DNA from: Paludisphaera soli
GTDB lineage: Bacteria > Planctomycetota > Planctomycetia > Isosphaerales > Isosphaeraceae
Reading direction: 5' to 3'
NCBI RefSeq assembly: GCF_011064595.1
Contig: NZ_JAALJI010000007.1
Coordinates: 124,001-188,000 of the forward strand
DNA length: 64,000 bases
The translations under genes and the position numbers were made by a program. Positions 21,168 to 64,000 of the stretch are shown here, in pieces. The notes under the pieces are model-generated. The model searched no databases and was not told the origin of the DNA. It worked only from the letters and a program-made list of their open reading frames with translations. How positions within the stretch are numbered: the first letter of the stretch is position 1; every line of letters starts with the position of its first letter.

Positions 21168-22577
<1,410 letters not shown>

Positions 22578-22651: not shown

Positions 22652-23794
22652 CTACGGCAGGGGTTTGGGAAGATCCGTCCCCTCGTTTCGTCCGTTTTTC
22701 GGCGTCGATTCCGCGTTCGGTTCGTCGCTCTCGGCCGGCGACGGCGGCCCGGGAGGCCGCGGCGAGGGGAGAAAGGCGCCCGGTCGGGGGACGGTGCGGA
22801 CCTTGATCGAGAGGGTCTCGTCGCCGCGGACCACCGTCAGCGTTACCTCGTCGCCGACCGGCCTCCGGTCGATCGCGCGTTGGAACGCCTGGGAATCCGG
22901 GACGTCGCGGCCGTCGACGGCCGTGATCCGATCGCCGGGACGCAGCAGGATACGCTCGGCCGGGCTCTCCTTCGCCACCCCGATCACCAGGGCGCCGGGT
23001 GCGTCGAGGCCACGGGCCGCCGGGAGCGGCCGGTCGGGGCCGAGCAGGACGCCGAGATAGCTCCTCGGAGGACCTCCCCCCTCATCGAAATCGGCGATCG
23101 CCGCGCGGATGCGGGCGGACGGGATCGCCGTCGTGAAACTCCCACGCGGCCTGCCGAGGACGAACGGCCCCTCGATCGGGACGGCGACCCCCACCGTGAG
23201 GCCCTCGCGATCGAGGACGGGGCCGCCCGCGTTCTCGACGGCCACCATCGCGTCGATGGGGAACGACGCGAGTTCGGAGCCGGGATCGTCACGGTCGCGA
23301 CTCGAGGCGACGATGCCGGCCGTCGCCAGGATCCGGCCCTCCGGCGAGCGTCCGATCGCAAAGAGATCGTCACCCAGCTGCAGCCTGGTCGAATCGCCCA
23401 ATTCGGCAGCCACGAGCCCTGGCGTCGCCGGGTCGACCTGGAGGAGGAGGAGCTCTCCGGCCGGATCGGCGTGGAAGACGCGGAGGACCGGCCGGGGCTC
23501 GCCGTCGGACAGGACGACCTCGGCCCGGAAACCTCCGAACAACGCCCGGCCCGTGGTGGCGACGAGCCCTCGCCCGGCGTCCACGACGACCCCCGCGCCC
23601 GACGGTCCGGCGATATCGCGCATCGGGTTTCGGACCGCACGGATCGCCGCGACGGAGGGGCCGACCTTCGCCGCCGCCCGGCGGATCGCCTCGGCCCGCG
23701 AGTTCGGGCCCGCTTCCTGAGCCGGGGCCACCGCCGGGGCCACGATCATCGCGAGGGCCAGGGCCCATCGACGACCAATCTTCGAGGTGAGCAT
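22652..23794 (-). CDS. HtrA/DegP-like protein with PDZ domain, catalytic triad lost
   Basis: A 380-residue exported protein: signal peptide (residues 8-26), a trypsin-fold domain (about 40-240) and one PDZ domain (about 255-345, with LRPGDRITAVDGRDVPDSQAF), then a proline-rich tail. The fold is recognisable by GPSGAGVVVD and ENAGGPVLD, but all three catalytic positions are changed: the His region reads VATTGRAL, the Asp position is Glu114 in DPAGELLLLQV, and the Ser is Ala189. It is therefore probably a non-proteolytic binding or chaperone protein of the envelope. GGAG lies eight bases before the ATG at 23794. It follows the TPR gene after 82 bases and precedes the NtrC regulator. Confidence 0.85.
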   Translation of the reverse strand: MLTSKIGRRWALALAMIVAPAVAPAQEAGPNSRAEAIRRAAAKVGPSVAAIRAVRNPMRDIAGPSGAGVVVDAGRGLVATTGRALFGGFRAEVVLSDGEPRPVLRVFHADPAGELLLLQVDPATPGLVAAELGDSTRLQLGDDLFAIGRSPEGRILATAGIVASSRDRDDPGSELASFPIDAMVAVENAGGPVLDREGLTVGVAVPIEGPFVLGRPRGSFTTAIPSARIRAAIADFDEGGGPPRSYLGVLLGPDRPLPAARGLDAPGALVIGVAKESPAERILLRPGDRITAVDGRDVPDSQAFQRAIDRRPVGDEVTLTVVRGDETLSIKVRTVPRPGAFLPSPRPPGPPSPAESDEPNAESTPKNGRNEGTDLPKPLP

Positions 23795-23876: not shown

Positions 23877-25229
23877 TCAACGGATCGGGATCAGGTCTCG
23901 GGGCTTCGTCTCGGGCTTGCCGGCATCGGTCTTGGGCGCCTCGCCCTTGTCGGAGCCGGCGCCTAGCTTCTCCTCGACGGACTGGCGGAGGATGCCGGGG
24001 CTGACGAACGGGAGAGCTTTCGTGCGGCGGCCGCCCTTCAGGATGACGACGACGGGCTTGGCCTGGGGGTCGTTCGGGGCCAGGGTGACGGTCTTCTTCT
24101 CCTCGGCGGCGTCCCCCTCGTGGGTGATCGTCTCCAGGGTCAGCCGGGTCGTCGGCTTGGCGGGGTCGGTCGCGATGGGCATGATCCGCACGGTGTAAGC
24201 GCCGTCGAAGCCTCGGGGGCAGACGTAGATCTCCTCGGGGCGGCTGCCCAGGCCGTTCTTGATGAGGGCGCCGCCGAAGACGGAGCGCGGCATGGAGTAG
24301 GAGACCGTGGCACCCAGGGGCTCCTCGACGACGAGGTCGAAGTCCGCCTCGCCGTCCCAGGTCAGGCGGATGTAGACGTCGCGGGCCTCGGCGGCGGGGA
24401 GGCTTGCAAGGAGCTTCTCGGCCTCGTCCGTCCGGGCTTCCTCGGTGAGCGCCTTGGCCAGGATCTCGGCCTGCTTGCGGCTCTCGCCGCGGAAATACTC
24501 ATCCTGGCCGGGCCAGCCCAGCGAGAGGAGCCTGGCGATGGACTCGGCCATCCTCTGAGGATCGCGGGTCTTCTGGGCCAGGTTGATCGACATGGCCAGC
24601 GGCTCGGCGCGGTGGGGGACCTTCTCGGCGGCCTCGTCGAGAAGGGGGCCGACGCGGTCGGTGAACCCCTTGAGCAGGAGCTTGTCGGCGGCGCTGACGA
24701 GGTGGTTGGGGTTGTGCGAGCGCTGGGCGAGGTCGGCCGCGTAGTTGAGGGCCTTCTCGACGTCAGCCGGCTTGCCGCCGTTCATCTCGATGGCGAGGGC
24801 GAGCGCCTCATACATCCAGAATTCGGCGTTCTTGGGCCGGTGCTGCAGGTAGCCGAGGATCGCCGCGTGGACCTCGCGAGCGAGGGCGGCGGCGTTTTCC
24901 TCGCTCTCGCTGGCGCTGCGATTGAGCAGGCGGACGGTCTCGTGAAGCTGGTCGGGCGTCTCGTCGTGCTTGCGATAGTATTCCGACCAGTAGGCGTAGG
25001 GGTCGTTGCCGCCGGGGGCCGGTTTGGCGTTCGCAGGGCCGCCGGTGATCGGGATGAGCCCGTCACGGGCCGAGCGGCCGGGGGAGGTGGGGGCGTTGCG
25101 GACCTTGGGGCCGGCGTTCTTCTCGGGAACGCCAGCGGGACCAGCCGGCTTGCGACCGGGCTGGTCCCGCGGAGCTTCGTTAGCGGGCCGGTTGGATCCG
25201 GCCCCAAACGGGGTCAGTTGCTTTTTTTT
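23877..25229 (-). CDS. TPR-like C-terminal region, in -1 frame of the upstream gene, no own start codon
   Basis: A frame of about 450 codons that runs from the A9 run to the stop at 23877. The first ATG, GTG or TTG is at 24815, well inside protein-like sequence; codons from 25213 to 24816 read as coherent protein (for example DPYAYWSEYYRKHDETPDQL). The order is a polar linker, helical TPR-like repeats (about residues 70-280), a beta-rich domain (YIRLTWDGEADFDLVVEEP) and a charged tail. It could be expressed as an extension of the secretin-like protein by slippage on the A9 run, from the CTG at 25217, or the run may be mis-sequenced by one base. Function unknown; probably in the envelope. Confidence 0.75.
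   Translation of the reverse strand, partial: KKKQLTPFGAGSNRPANEAPRDQPGRKPAGPAGVPEKNAGPKVRNAPTSPGRSARDGLIPITGGPANAKPAPGGNDPYAYWSEYYRKHDETPDQLHETVRLLNRSASESEENAAALAREVHAAILGYLQHRPKNAEFWMYEALALAIEMNGGKPADVEKALNYAADLAQRSHNPNHLVSAADKLLLKGFTDRVGPLLDEAAEKVPHRAEPLAMSINLAQKTRDPQRMAESIARLLSLGWPGQDEYFRGESRKQAEILAKALTEEARTDEAEKLLASLPAAEARDVYIRLTWDGEADFDLVVEEPLGATVSYSMPRSVFGGALIKNGLGSRPEEIYVCPRGFDGAYTVRIMPIATDPAKPTTRLTLETITHEGDAAEEKKTVTLAPNDPQAKPVVVILKGGRRTKALPFVSPGILRQSVEEKLGAGSDKGEAPKTDAGKPETKPRDLIPIR
25136..25169 (-). other. RNA hairpin downstream of the A9 run
   Basis: A perfect 11-base-pair stem, CGGGACCAGCC (25136-25146) against GGCTGGTCCCG (25159-25169), inside the TPR-frame coding region. A second smaller stem (GGGCCGG 25185-25191 with CCGGCCC 25198-25204) lies nearer the run, starting 17 bases after it in the transcript. 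Such structures could assist frameshifting, but they may simply reflect high GC. Confidence 0.5.
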
Positions 25230-26956
25230 TGCATGAGGGCGCCCGCGGGGTCGTCCTGGGTCGGGACGACCGGGATGGACATCATGCCCATACCGCCGCC
25301 CATGCCGCCCATGCCACCCATGCCGCCGCCGCCCATGCCGCCCATACCGCCGCCCATGCCGCCCATGCCGCCGCCCATGCCGCCCATGCCGCCGCCCATA
25401 CCGCCACCCATGCCGCCGCCGCCCGAGATGAGCGAGATCGGGATGAGGGCGAGGTCGGCGACGGGGTAGACGCGGATCTCGGTCTGCTGGTCTTCGGACT
25501 CCTGCGAGGTGACCATCAGGAAGCCGTCCTTGACGGTGTACGTCAGGCCGATCTGGCGGAGCATCAGGCGGAGCGTGGTCTTCAGGGGCACGCCGTCGAG
25601 GTCGAGCGAGACCGGCGAGGTCATCGTCTTGTCGGCTTCATTGAGGCCGATCGGGTCGACGTAGATGGGGATGCCGTTGTCGGCCGGGGTCTGGGTGGCC
25701 TGCTTGACGTACTTGAGGACGTCCTCGAGGGGCGTCTCGTTGGGGAAGTTCATCGCCAGGGGCTCGTCGAGCTTGGCGAGGATCTGCTTGGTCTTGGGGT
25801 CGCGGTCGAACACGTCGACGGCCTTGCCGTAGCGGGCGATCCGGCGCTCGGAGAGGCTGCGGAAGAGGGCCGCGTCGGGATACTCGATGATCTTGTCGTC
25901 GGGGAAGGGGACCGCGGCGCGGGCGACGTCTTGCATCGTCAGCATGAAGCGGTATTCCTTCAGCTCCTCGAACTGCTTCTCCTGCGAGAGGAAGCCCATG
26001 GTCGTGGAGACGAACATGCCGGCGTAGGGGGCCGGGCTCTCGTCGCTATAGGGGAGGGTGCCCTTGTGCATGAGCGACCGCGCGTGCTGAGCGAGCAGGC
26101 GGGCGTCGTAGAACGGTGCCGTCGACAGGCCGATGTTCCCCATGCCGCCGTTGTAGAGGGAGTTGTAGACGCCCTCGCCCATCAGCGTGTCGAACTGGTT
26201 CATCATGGCCTTGATGGTCTCCTGGTTGGCCACCAGTTGCGACAGGCCGCGATTGCGCTGCTCGGCGGCCGACTCGACCCGCTGACGCTCGATCCGCTCG
26301 GAGACGATGCGTTCCTCGTCGCGGATGGTCGACAGGTACTGGGCCTGGATGCGGCGGTCGAGTTGGTTGCGGACGCTCTCGGGGACGTTCGAGGCCGACC
26401 GCACGACGTTCTGGGCCAGGCGGAGGGTGTCGAGGGCCGCCTCCGGATTGCCGTTGCGGACCATCTCGCGGGCCGCGCTCATCCGCTGCTCGACGTCGCT
26501 GGTGAGCTGCTGGCGGGCGATAGCGTCGGCGCGGTCCGACTCCTCGAGCGTGGCCCGGCTGTTGGGGCCGGCGTCGGGCGGGGCGGGGGGCGTCGGTTGG
26601 GCCGGCTCGGCGGGGGGCGTCGGCTGGGCCGGCTGGGCGGGGAGGGTCTCGGCGACGCCGGGGGCCGGAGGAGCCGGGGCGTCCTGCAGGGCCACCTTGA
26701 AGAGGCGGTCCTGGGCGGCCTTGGCCTCGTCGAGGCCCTTCACGGCGTCGGCGTTGTCGGGGTCGATCTCCAGCGCCTTCTGGAAGAAGGAGCGGGCCAT
26801 CCCGCCGGCACCCTGCGCCAGCGCCTGCCGGCCGAGGTCCGTCAGTTGTTCGGATAGCGGCGGGGCATCGTCGCCGCGCGACGCGGCCCCGGACAGCAAT
26901 ACGCCGCCCAGGGTCAGCAGCCCGGCGCCTTTCCACAGTCTCGCGGTTCGGGACAT
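25214..26956 (-). CDS. secretin-like envelope protein with TPR, STN-like module and Gly-Met-rich tail
   Basis: A 580-residue exported protein from the ATG at 26956 (GGAGAG upstream). A signal peptide ends near residue 28. One TPR-like helix pair follows (about 35-75), then a Pro-rich linker, a long helical region, and a module like the secretin N-terminal short domain (about 445-530: NETPLEDVLKYVKQAT, GIPIYVDP, VSLDLDGVPLKTTLRLML, YTVKDGFLMV). The C-terminus is a Gly-Met-rich run encoded at about 25290-25420. The protein stops two codons after an A9 run (MQKKSN). Unlike true secretins it lacks the large beta-barrel domain. The same module occurs at 62972-64000. Confidence 0.85.
   Translation of the reverse strand: MSRTARLWKGAGLLTLGGVLLSGAASRGDDAPPLSEQLTDLGRQALAQGAGGMARSFFQKALEIDPDNADAVKGLDEAKAAQDRLFKVALQDAPAPPAPGVAETLPAQPAQPTPPAEPAQPTPPAPPDAGPNSRATLEESDRADAIARQQLTSDVEQRMSAAREMVRNGNPEAALDTLRLAQNVVRSASNVPESVRNQLDRRIQAQYLSTIRDEERIVSERIERQRVESAAEQRNRGLSQLVANQETIKAMMNQFDTLMGEGVYNSLYNGGMGNIGLSTAPFYDARLLAQHARSLMHKGTLPYSDESPAPYAGMFVSTTMGFLSQEKQFEELKEYRFMLTMQDVARAAVPFPDDKIIEYPDAALFRSLSERRIARYGKAVDVFDRDPKTKQILAKLDEPLAMNFPNETPLEDVLKYVKQATQTPADNGIPIYVDPIGLNEADKTMTSPVSLDLDGVPLKTTLRLMLRQIGLTYTVKDGFLMVTSQESEDQQTEIRVYPVADLALIPISLISGGGGMGGGMGGGMGGMGGGMGGMGGGMGGMGGGGMGGMGGMGGGMGMMSIPVVPTQDDPAGALMQKKSN
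25222..25230 (-). promoter_or_regulatory. A9 slippery run (possible recoding or transcriptional slippage site)
   Basis: Nine consecutive A on the minus strand, read in frame as CAA AAA AAA AGC, then AAC TGA. It contains the heptamer A AAA AAA. A -1 shift, or insertion of one A by RNA polymerase, bypasses the TGA and enters the long open frame ending at 23877. A9 runs are known to cause transcriptional slippage in Thermus dnaX. A sequencing error of one base in the run would look the same. Confidence 0.55.
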
Positions 26957-62971: not shown

Positions 62972-64000
62972 TCACCTCTCCTTGAGCTGGCGTGGCGCGA
63001 TCTTCGGTAGTTCGAAATCCCCGACGGCCGGCAACCGCTCTTCGATCAGTCGGGTCAGCCGATCGAGCTTCTCCTCGATGGCGTCGACGCGAAGATCGGC
63101 GGCCCCGGCCCGGGTGTCGATCATCAAGAAGCCGTCCTTCACGGCGTAGCCGAGGTCCAGCACCGCAAGGTAGTCCCTCAGGTAAACGCCGATCGGGACG
63201 GTCTTCGCCTTCATGTCGACCGTCGACCTCAGATGCTTGTCCGTGATGGAGAGGGCGTAGGGATTGACGTAGATCGGGATGCCCGGATCGCTGGGAGTGG
63301 CCGAGGACTCCTTCAGCCACTTCAGGAGTTTCTCCAACTCGATCCCTTCCGGGAAATCGAAGTCGTGCCTCTCGGCGAGCTTGGCCCGGATGATCGCATT
63401 TTTGGCCTCGCGTTCCTCCCGACTCGGAGGCCCTGGGATCGGCTCAGGTTCGGAGGTCGGTGGCGTGGCGGGGGGCGAGACCGGGACGGCCGCCGACGGC
63501 TGCGGCGTCGGTTTGGTGGGCCCGGCTTGCTGGGCCAGGACGACGGAGCCGACGACGCCGAGCGTCGCCAGCGACGAGAAGGCGACGGGCTTCCAGGATG
63601 CAAGGGTCATGGCGACGAGGGCTCCTTTCGCGAGCGAGGAGATCGACAACGGGACGGCCGCAGTTCGGGTCGAGAGCGCCAGCAGGGACTGGATCACCGG
63701 GGCGGGGGGGGCCGCGAGGACGAACGGTCCCGGCACGATGACGCCCCGTGGCGTCAATCTTGATTCGAGACGCCTCCGTCCCCGCTGGAGCCGCCCGCGC
63801 AGGGCCGGTTCGGAGACGCCGAGCGCCCGGGCCGCTTGTTCGTAGGAAAGCCCCTCGAGGCCGCACAGGATGATCGGCCCGCGGTAGCGTTCGGGGAGCC
63901 GGTCGATCTCGGCGTGGATCAGGGCCGTCGCGTCCTCCGGGGGGGCCTCGCGGGCCGCGAGCGTGGCCGGGTCGACGAGGCTCAGGCGATTCCTTCGGTC
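62972..64000 (-). CDS. ECF-type sigma factor with C-terminal membrane segment and STN-like module (N-terminus outside window)
   Basis: Partial gene of at least 342 codons, open at the window end. The first visible residues form sigma region 4 with a helix-turn-helix (DRLPERYRGPIILCGLEGLS, then YEQAARALGVSEPALRGRLQRG). After it come a basic stretch, hydrophobic segments around visible residues 90-160 (ending GVVGSVVLAQQAG), a Pro-rich linker and a module of about 90 residues (FPEGIELEKLLKWLKES, GIPIYVNP, GYAVKDGFLMIDTR) homologous to the one at 25.5 kb. Sigma region 2 must lie beyond 64000. The extension could anchor the sigma factor to the membrane and sense an envelope signal. No anti-sigma gene is seen downstream. 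Confidence 0.85.
   Translation of the reverse strand, partial: DRRNRLSLVDPATLAAREAPPEDATALIHAEIDRLPERYRGPIILCGLEGLSYEQAARALGVSEPALRGRLQRGRRRLESRLTPRGVIVPGPFVLAAPPAPVIQSLLALSTRTAAVPLSISSLAKGALVAMTLASWKPVAFSSLATLGVVGSVVLAQQAGPTKPTPQPSAAVPVSPPATPPTSEPEPIPGPPSREEREAKNAIIRAKLAERHDFDFPEGIELEKLLKWLKESSATPSDPGIPIYVNPYALSITDKHLRSTVDMKAKTVPIGVYLRDYLAVLDLGYAVKDGFLMIDTRAGAADLRVDAIEEKLDRLTRLIEERLPAVGDFELPKIAPRQLKER

Follow-up and report, generated by a model that had tools for sequence, protein, structure and literature searches.

Near its right-hand end, the window, by which we mean the whole stretch of 64,000 nucleotides analysed here (G000:C165:124001-188000, from a host genome of 7.97 Mb), encodes most of an ECF sigma factor whose long tail resembles part of an envelope protein encoded elsewhere in the window. 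This raises the question of what a sigma factor does with such a tail, and whether it could read the state of the envelope directly, as the initial annotation had suggested.

Domain layout of the sigma factor

P0001 is an ECF sigma factor (group 4) of 456 amino acids, with sigma regions 2 and 4, encoded on the minus strand at G000:C165:186972-188342. Its start lies 342 bases past the window end, and sigma region 2 is also outside the window. Matches were obtained to Sigma70_r2 (3.3e-10) and Sigma70_r4_2 (2.2e-13) in Pfam and, above the cut-off, to TIGR02937, and the sigma domains were delimited to residues 26-196 from the sequence and an orthologue alignment; the last 260 residues have no Pfam match. 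The features of the gene, in window coordinates, are as follows.

62972-64000, minus strand: last 342 codons and stop codon of P0001; the gene runs on to window-equivalent 64342
63767-63922, minus strand: sigma region 4, residues 141-192 (Sigma70_r4_2, E 2.2e-13)
63593-63754, minus strand: neck, residues 197-250, ending in a conserved SxLAKGAxxAM before the membrane segment (orthologue alignment)
63533-63589, minus strand: predicted single transmembrane segment PVAFSSLATLGVVGSVVLA, residues 252-270 (hydropathy 1.85, dG 2.4)
63407-63532, minus strand: Pro/Ala-rich linker, residues 271-312 (sequence; low conservation among orthologues)
63080-63406, minus strand: predicted STN/N0-fold module, residues 313-421, about 110 amino acids (similarity, model and structure matches)
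62975-63079, minus strand: C-terminal tail, residues 422-456, in which an EEKLDxL amphipathic helix is conserved (alignment; helix in the AlphaFold2 model)

The reading frame, sigma region 4 and the peptides of the GIPIYVNP and VKDGFLMIDT type were all found where the initial annotation had placed them. It had also mentioned several hydrophobic segments; such stretches exist, but of three, only residues 252-270 form a conserved segment resembling a single membrane span.

Full-length orthologues of P0001 are present in all five genus relatives, at 45-61% identity. Among them, conservation is higher in the sigma domains and in the hydrophobic segment than in the neck or the linker, and the modules are 33-59% identical. 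In most of these relatives, the orthologue and a thioredoxin-like gene are divergently oriented, and a second sigma-STN gene, of the P0003 type, lies several kb away with one long gene between them (about 1100 amino acids), which, judging from its start, may be mfd. The thioredoxin-domain protein encoded divergently from P0001 has two matched stretches (L018:4301-5518); it is kept in the genus (L112, L114, L189, L190) and has its own conserved upstream block, GTTACRGTCGTANGAG. P0003 itself is encoded 6 kb past the window end (L018:10248-13436), and its gene is followed by genes for an FHA-domain protein and an LTXXQ (Spy/CpxP-like) protein; FHA-like genes adjoin sigma-STN genes in L109, L116, L117 and L118 as well.

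The shared module, its fold and its hosts

The tail module of P0001 has a counterpart in P0005, whose gene forms part of a run of genes on the minus strand of the window.

25214-26956, minus strand: P0005, TPR-STN envelope protein with a signal peptide, candidate partner
25478-25795, minus strand: STN module of P0005
23877-24815, minus strand: unnamed protein directly downstream of P0005, the same neighbour in 18 of 19 loci (tblastn)
22652-23794, minus strand: HtrA-type trypsin and PDZ protease, candidate first-cut protease (Pfam Trypsin_2, PDZ_2)
21168-22577, minus strand: NtrC-type response regulator, same gene run (Pfam Response_reg and Sigma54_activat)

The two modules align over 110 amino acids with 38% identity (phmmer, 69 bits, E 2.7e-20), compared with E 0.08 for the best of 2000 shuffles, which bears out the earlier claim that both proteins share a module. 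P0005 consists of a signal peptide, one TPR, a long middle part, the STN module and a Gly/Met-rich end, and proteins of this TPR-STN type are found throughout the family. The end is a long Gly/Met repeat of the type GGMGGGMGG (window 25214-25480), and some other module proteins have comparable stretches (L111, P0004, P0006). P0005 had previously been described as secretin-like, a description that does not extend beyond the STN module: Pfam gives no secretin channel domain in P0005, which was therefore rejected as a secretin, and the two secretins of the genome are located elsewhere.

About ten copies of the module were found in the genome, four of them in the ECF sigma factors P0001, P0002, P0003 and P0004. 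The other hosts have one copy each: P0005 (TPR), P0006 (DUF4139/DUF4140), P0007, which is a membrane-anchored module protein of 164 amino acids, and a secretin frame of 1560 amino acids that matches the module profile in its STN part (E 2.3e-15). All 45 family genomes contain the module, in 1 to 13 copies each, and weaker copies were detected with the profile outside the family, including two fused to sigma factors in a different family of the class. A survey of ECF proteins with this tail, which the initial annotation had called for, yielded 47 distinct sigma-STN proteins in the fetched loci; these loci were chosen from the best matches to a profile built on this genome, so they are not random and counts depend on that choice. 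In several genera, the module sits inside the DUF4139 domain of DUF4140/DUF4139 proteins (L005:1582-1908, L188, L192, L195, L200), and in L108, L110 and L124 it occurs ahead of the last membrane segment in each of several multi-membrane proteins encoded in tandem. For one multi-membrane host, identity as a BlaR-type protease was considered and rejected, as it has no Pfam match.

An AlphaFold2 model of the P0001 module with eight relatives (pLDDT 88.3, pTM 0.80) has the helix and strand order of STN domains; a full-length model of a relative was set aside (pLDDT 50). The top Foldseek entries were the N0 domains of PilQ and EscC, weak by score at E 0.03-0.04, and since this search gave no match below E 0.001, the assignment rests on topology, Z scores and sequence hits. 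With VIA-align, the module matched the N0 domains of EscC (Z 7.9) and of XcpQ and GspD (Z 6.5-7.1), the FecR-type anti-sigma structures 4m0h and 4m0n (Z 7.7-7.8, 2.1-2.2 Å over 73-74 residues), and the signalling domains of PupB and FpvA (Z 5.4-6.0). Spike domains of phage baseplates and injection systems matched at equally high Z, and the assignment therefore leans also on sequence: Pfam STN is matched by 22 of 37 modules (best 5.5e-7), among which the module of P0001 is not found, and P0003, P0004 and P0005 fall under the curated cut-off. We conclude that the module is confidently predicted to have an STN/N0 fold, which alone is no proof of STN function.

To relate the sigma tails to the envelope proteins, 39 sigma-tail modules were set against TPR-STN modules from 12 genera. 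In each of the 11 genera having both, likeness to the TPR-STN module of the same genus exceeded that to other genera (mean +8.6 points, permutation p 2e-4), and in a module tree, sigma-tail modules often have TPR-STN or STN-only modules from their own genome as neighbours. Simple ancient divergence would leave no such own-genus preference, and we see no evident way in which the choice of loci alone could create it. It suggests co-evolution of partners, gene conversion, or both. Several within-genome pairs have more synonymous codons in common than expected (z 3-5, up to 4.7) and others do not, so both processes may act.

For the proteins of the window, the preference is mild, the P0001 and P0005 modules being 42% alike compared with 36% for other genera, and this pair carries no synonymous-codon signal and no trace of recent DNA exchange. 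The sigma factor most like P0005 is P0003, whose module is 69% identical to that of P0005, a much closer pair. The pairing of P0001 with P0005 that had been put forward is thus suggestive only, favoured by the class-wide match and weakened by the modest likeness of this particular pair.

The likeness could also have come from DNA exchange with no working contact between the proteins, the modules being mobile blocks homogenised by gene conversion, a reading that is compatible with a membrane tether. It would explain the codon signal, the insertion in a DUF4139 protein and the presence in multi-membrane proteins, as well as the mixing of host types within genomes on the module tree. The own-genus match, however, holds in every genus compared, including pairs that lack the codon signal, and we regard this reading as possible but on the unlikely side.

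Gene neighbourhoods were also inspected. Of the 33 sigma-STN genes with sufficient flanking sequence, about a third lie no more than 2.5 kb from another module gene, and the two share a strand in every case; in four genera an STN-only protein is among these neighbours. One such protein (L117:5681-6517) keeps the sigma-type neck and membrane segment without the sigma domain and adjoins an intact sigma-STN gene. Downstream of P0005, some members of the family have genes for an HtrA-type protease and an NtrC-type regulator, as the window does. In some sigma release pathways, the initial cleavage is carried out by an HtrA protease, such as DegS in the RpoE pathway, so the protease encoded near P0005 is a candidate for this step, as a lead only.

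Origin of the sigma fusions and a putative promoter of the window clade

In a tree of sigma domains, the clade of the window protein (7 proteins) is apart from the main sigma-STN clade (31 proteins), and a two-module sigma factor and the two sigma fusions of the other family are also separate. Four changes of tail label are needed on this tree, at least two of them forced by supported branches, and a single origin of the fusions is accordingly disfavoured; a single clade for both main groups was not rejected (AU p 0.12), for which reason repeated capture is likely rather than proven. STN tails were thus likely gained more than once, on a common chassis of tethered sigma factors.

An alignment of five genomes revealed a conserved block in the region separating the sigma gene from the thioredoxin gene. 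It contains the motif GAGGAT-N11-GGGCACTA, of which exactly seven perfect copies exist in six whole genomes, all upstream of sigma genes of the window clade; the 1.39 Mb of fetched sequence likewise hold seven distinct sites. The motif lies about 41-46 bases from the sigma gene start in six cases. Among the genes marked by it is P0002, which is encoded elsewhere in the genome. The copy before P0001 is just outside the window, at C165:188386-188410 (window-equivalent 64386-64410), and the others are in L262-L267. Allowing one mismatch added one match, compared with four for a reversed-pattern control. The motif is absent before the divergent thioredoxin gene, and a regulon search with it gave no further convincing targets, so that it marks sigma genes only; the conserved block upstream of the P0003 group is a different one. 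Positive autoregulation is common among ECF sigma factors, and the motif is likely an autoregulated promoter, which P0001 itself may read.

A putative membrane tether and a proposed one-chain pathway

Membrane segments were scored by windowed hydropathy and on a dG scale that was checked on known helices. A segment below 2 kcal/mol was present in 92.5% of 80 distinct long-tailed ECF sigma factors, at a median of 61 residues past the sigma domain, compared with 2.5% of their sigma domains. The segment of P0001 is the weakest among the module-bearing sigma factors (orthologues range from 0.3 to 2.4, with P0001 at 2.4); it is 71-81% identical in four genus orthologues and 33% in the fifth, and the charge bias flanking the segments is not decisive for direction. 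A hydrophobic segment is thus general in this class of sigma factors and supports P0001 being a tethered one, which fits the recovery of ECF sigma factors in detergent fractions of a planctomycete proteome (PMC8567305). The module of P0001 would then be on the extracytoplasmic side, since the sigma domains must be inside, since other hosts of the module carry signal peptides or N-terminal anchors, and because of where STN domains are known to work. The earlier view of a membrane-tethered sigma factor with an outside module therefore gains from the fold, the class-wide segment and the other hosts, and its soft point is the segment of P0001 itself.

In Pseudomonas, PupR and FoxR make contact with the receptor's STN signalling domain through an STN subdomain (PMC7186176, with a PupR:PupB structure; PMC11637429), and the anti-sigma factor FoxR is thereby protected from proteolysis (PMC11637429). 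IutY, which combines sigma and anti-sigma parts in one chain, is released by Prc and RseP, and its truncated form is active (PMC5411451). In the genome studied here, no FecR family member was detected, P0001 included, and no TonB plug domain, while control genomes gave plug matches; M50 proteases are present. A FecR-type partner is thus excluded, and signalling of the FecR or TonB type was rejected. The earlier statement that P0001 works without an anti-sigma factor stands to this extent, the search having covered the FecR and TonB-plug families.

From the Pseudomonas precedents, the lack of FecR and plug domains and the presence of M50 proteases, we propose a one-chain system with an STN-STN contact outside the membrane. 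P0001 would be held at the inner membrane by its own tail with the sigma domains in the cytoplasm, one membrane helix following region 4 and a flexible linker holding the STN/N0 domain and a short, putatively oligomerising helix on the far side. As STN domains pair with each other in secretins and in TonB transducer/FecR-type pairs, the tail STN would most likely contact an envelope STN, which may be that of the TPR-STN protein, of an STN-only membrane protein or of another sigma-STN protein. A changed contact would open the tail to proteolysis, with a first cut by an HtrA- or Prc-type protease and a second by an M50 site-2 protease; the freed sigma domains would then act on their own gene through the clade-specific promoter. 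To the computed features (domain order, STN fold, hydrophobic segment, conservation, non-random module link and promoter-like motif), the model adds what we infer, namely the membrane crossing and far-side location, the STN-STN partner, the proteolytic release, the signal direction and the autoregulation of P0001. We give a probability of about 0.5 to P0001 being a one-chain analogue of IutY-type surface signalling, released by proteolysis on a changed STN-STN contact.

The tail of a tethered P0001 could instead sense a ligand, peptidoglycan or crowding by itself, or self-associate, without any partner STN protein. This would be in keeping with the lack of a module gene within 2.5 kb of P0001, with the mild match between its module and that of P0005, and with the conserved C-terminal amphipathic helix, which suggests oligomers; against this, STN-only membrane proteins and second sigma-STN genes adjoin sigma-STN genes in several genera, and there is the own-genus match with the TPR-STN module, so that we consider a partnerless sensor doubtful. 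Action at the membrane by a sigma factor that is never released is improbable. In its favour, cleavage of P0001 is a predicted step, and ECF sigma factors of another planctomycete fractionate with detergent-soluble material (PMC8567305), but IutY, the best-studied tethered ECF sigma factor, requires proteolysis and is active in truncated form (PMC5411451). A hydrophobic stretch that does not span the membrane, leaving the STN-like tail in the cytoplasm to control the sigma domains in cis in the manner of ECF41, would suit the high dG and unclear charge asymmetry of P0001, but is hardly to be expected given a segment at a fixed place in nearly all of the 80 paralogues and orthologues, and a module that elsewhere follows signal peptides or N-terminal membrane anchors.

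The one-chain system proposed for P0001 has several relatives among known regulators. Like P0001, IutY of Pseudomonas putida (ECF243) joins a cytoplasmic ECF sigma factor to one membrane helix and a periplasmic domain that controls release (PMC5411451, PMC8999054); it differs in having a FecR-type anti-sigma part that is read by a TonB-dependent receptor, whereas the far side of P0001 consists of the linker and one STN module, with no FecR match. P0001 is not a member of the IutY type, because the FecR part and the TonB receptor are absent. FecR, PupR and FoxR carry a C-terminal STN fold on a membrane-anchored regulator (4m0h, Z 7.8; PMC7186176), but there the anti-sigma factor is a separate protein, while in P0001 the STN module is on the sigma factor itself. 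ECF48, ECF52 and ECF53 of Actinobacteria also have a membrane-spanning C-terminal extension fused to the ECF sigma factor (PMC8999054); they differ in a zinc-finger anti-sigma part and other far-side domains, among which the literature covered here reports no STN. Long-tailed planctomycete ECF sigma factors, including those with WD40 tails (described in PMC8567305), share the same chassis of sigma domains, neck and membrane helix and are abundant in the class; the tail of P0001 differs in being an STN module common to envelope proteins. The N0/STN domains of secretins, including the genome's own, resemble the P0001 module in fold and profile, but P0001, like P0005, has no secretin channel domain. 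Within the incomplete coverage of our literature search, no publication joining planctomycetes, STN domains and sigma factors was found.

For the sigma factor class in the Isosphaeraceae as a whole, we tentatively suggest that each chain may contain an entire envelope-to-gene pathway, with the tail STN as the receptor contact, matched genus by genus to the STN module of the conserved TPR-STN protein, without either an anti-sigma factor or a TonB receptor, and with STN tails captured more than once.

Planctomycete genomes encode dozens of sigma factors whose long tails are unexplained. Should the STN module of a common envelope protein read the STN tail, this would offer a direct test of envelope sensing by such sigma factors, for which the promoter motif is a ready reporter. 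Surface signalling would then operate here with neither an anti-sigma factor nor a TonB receptor.
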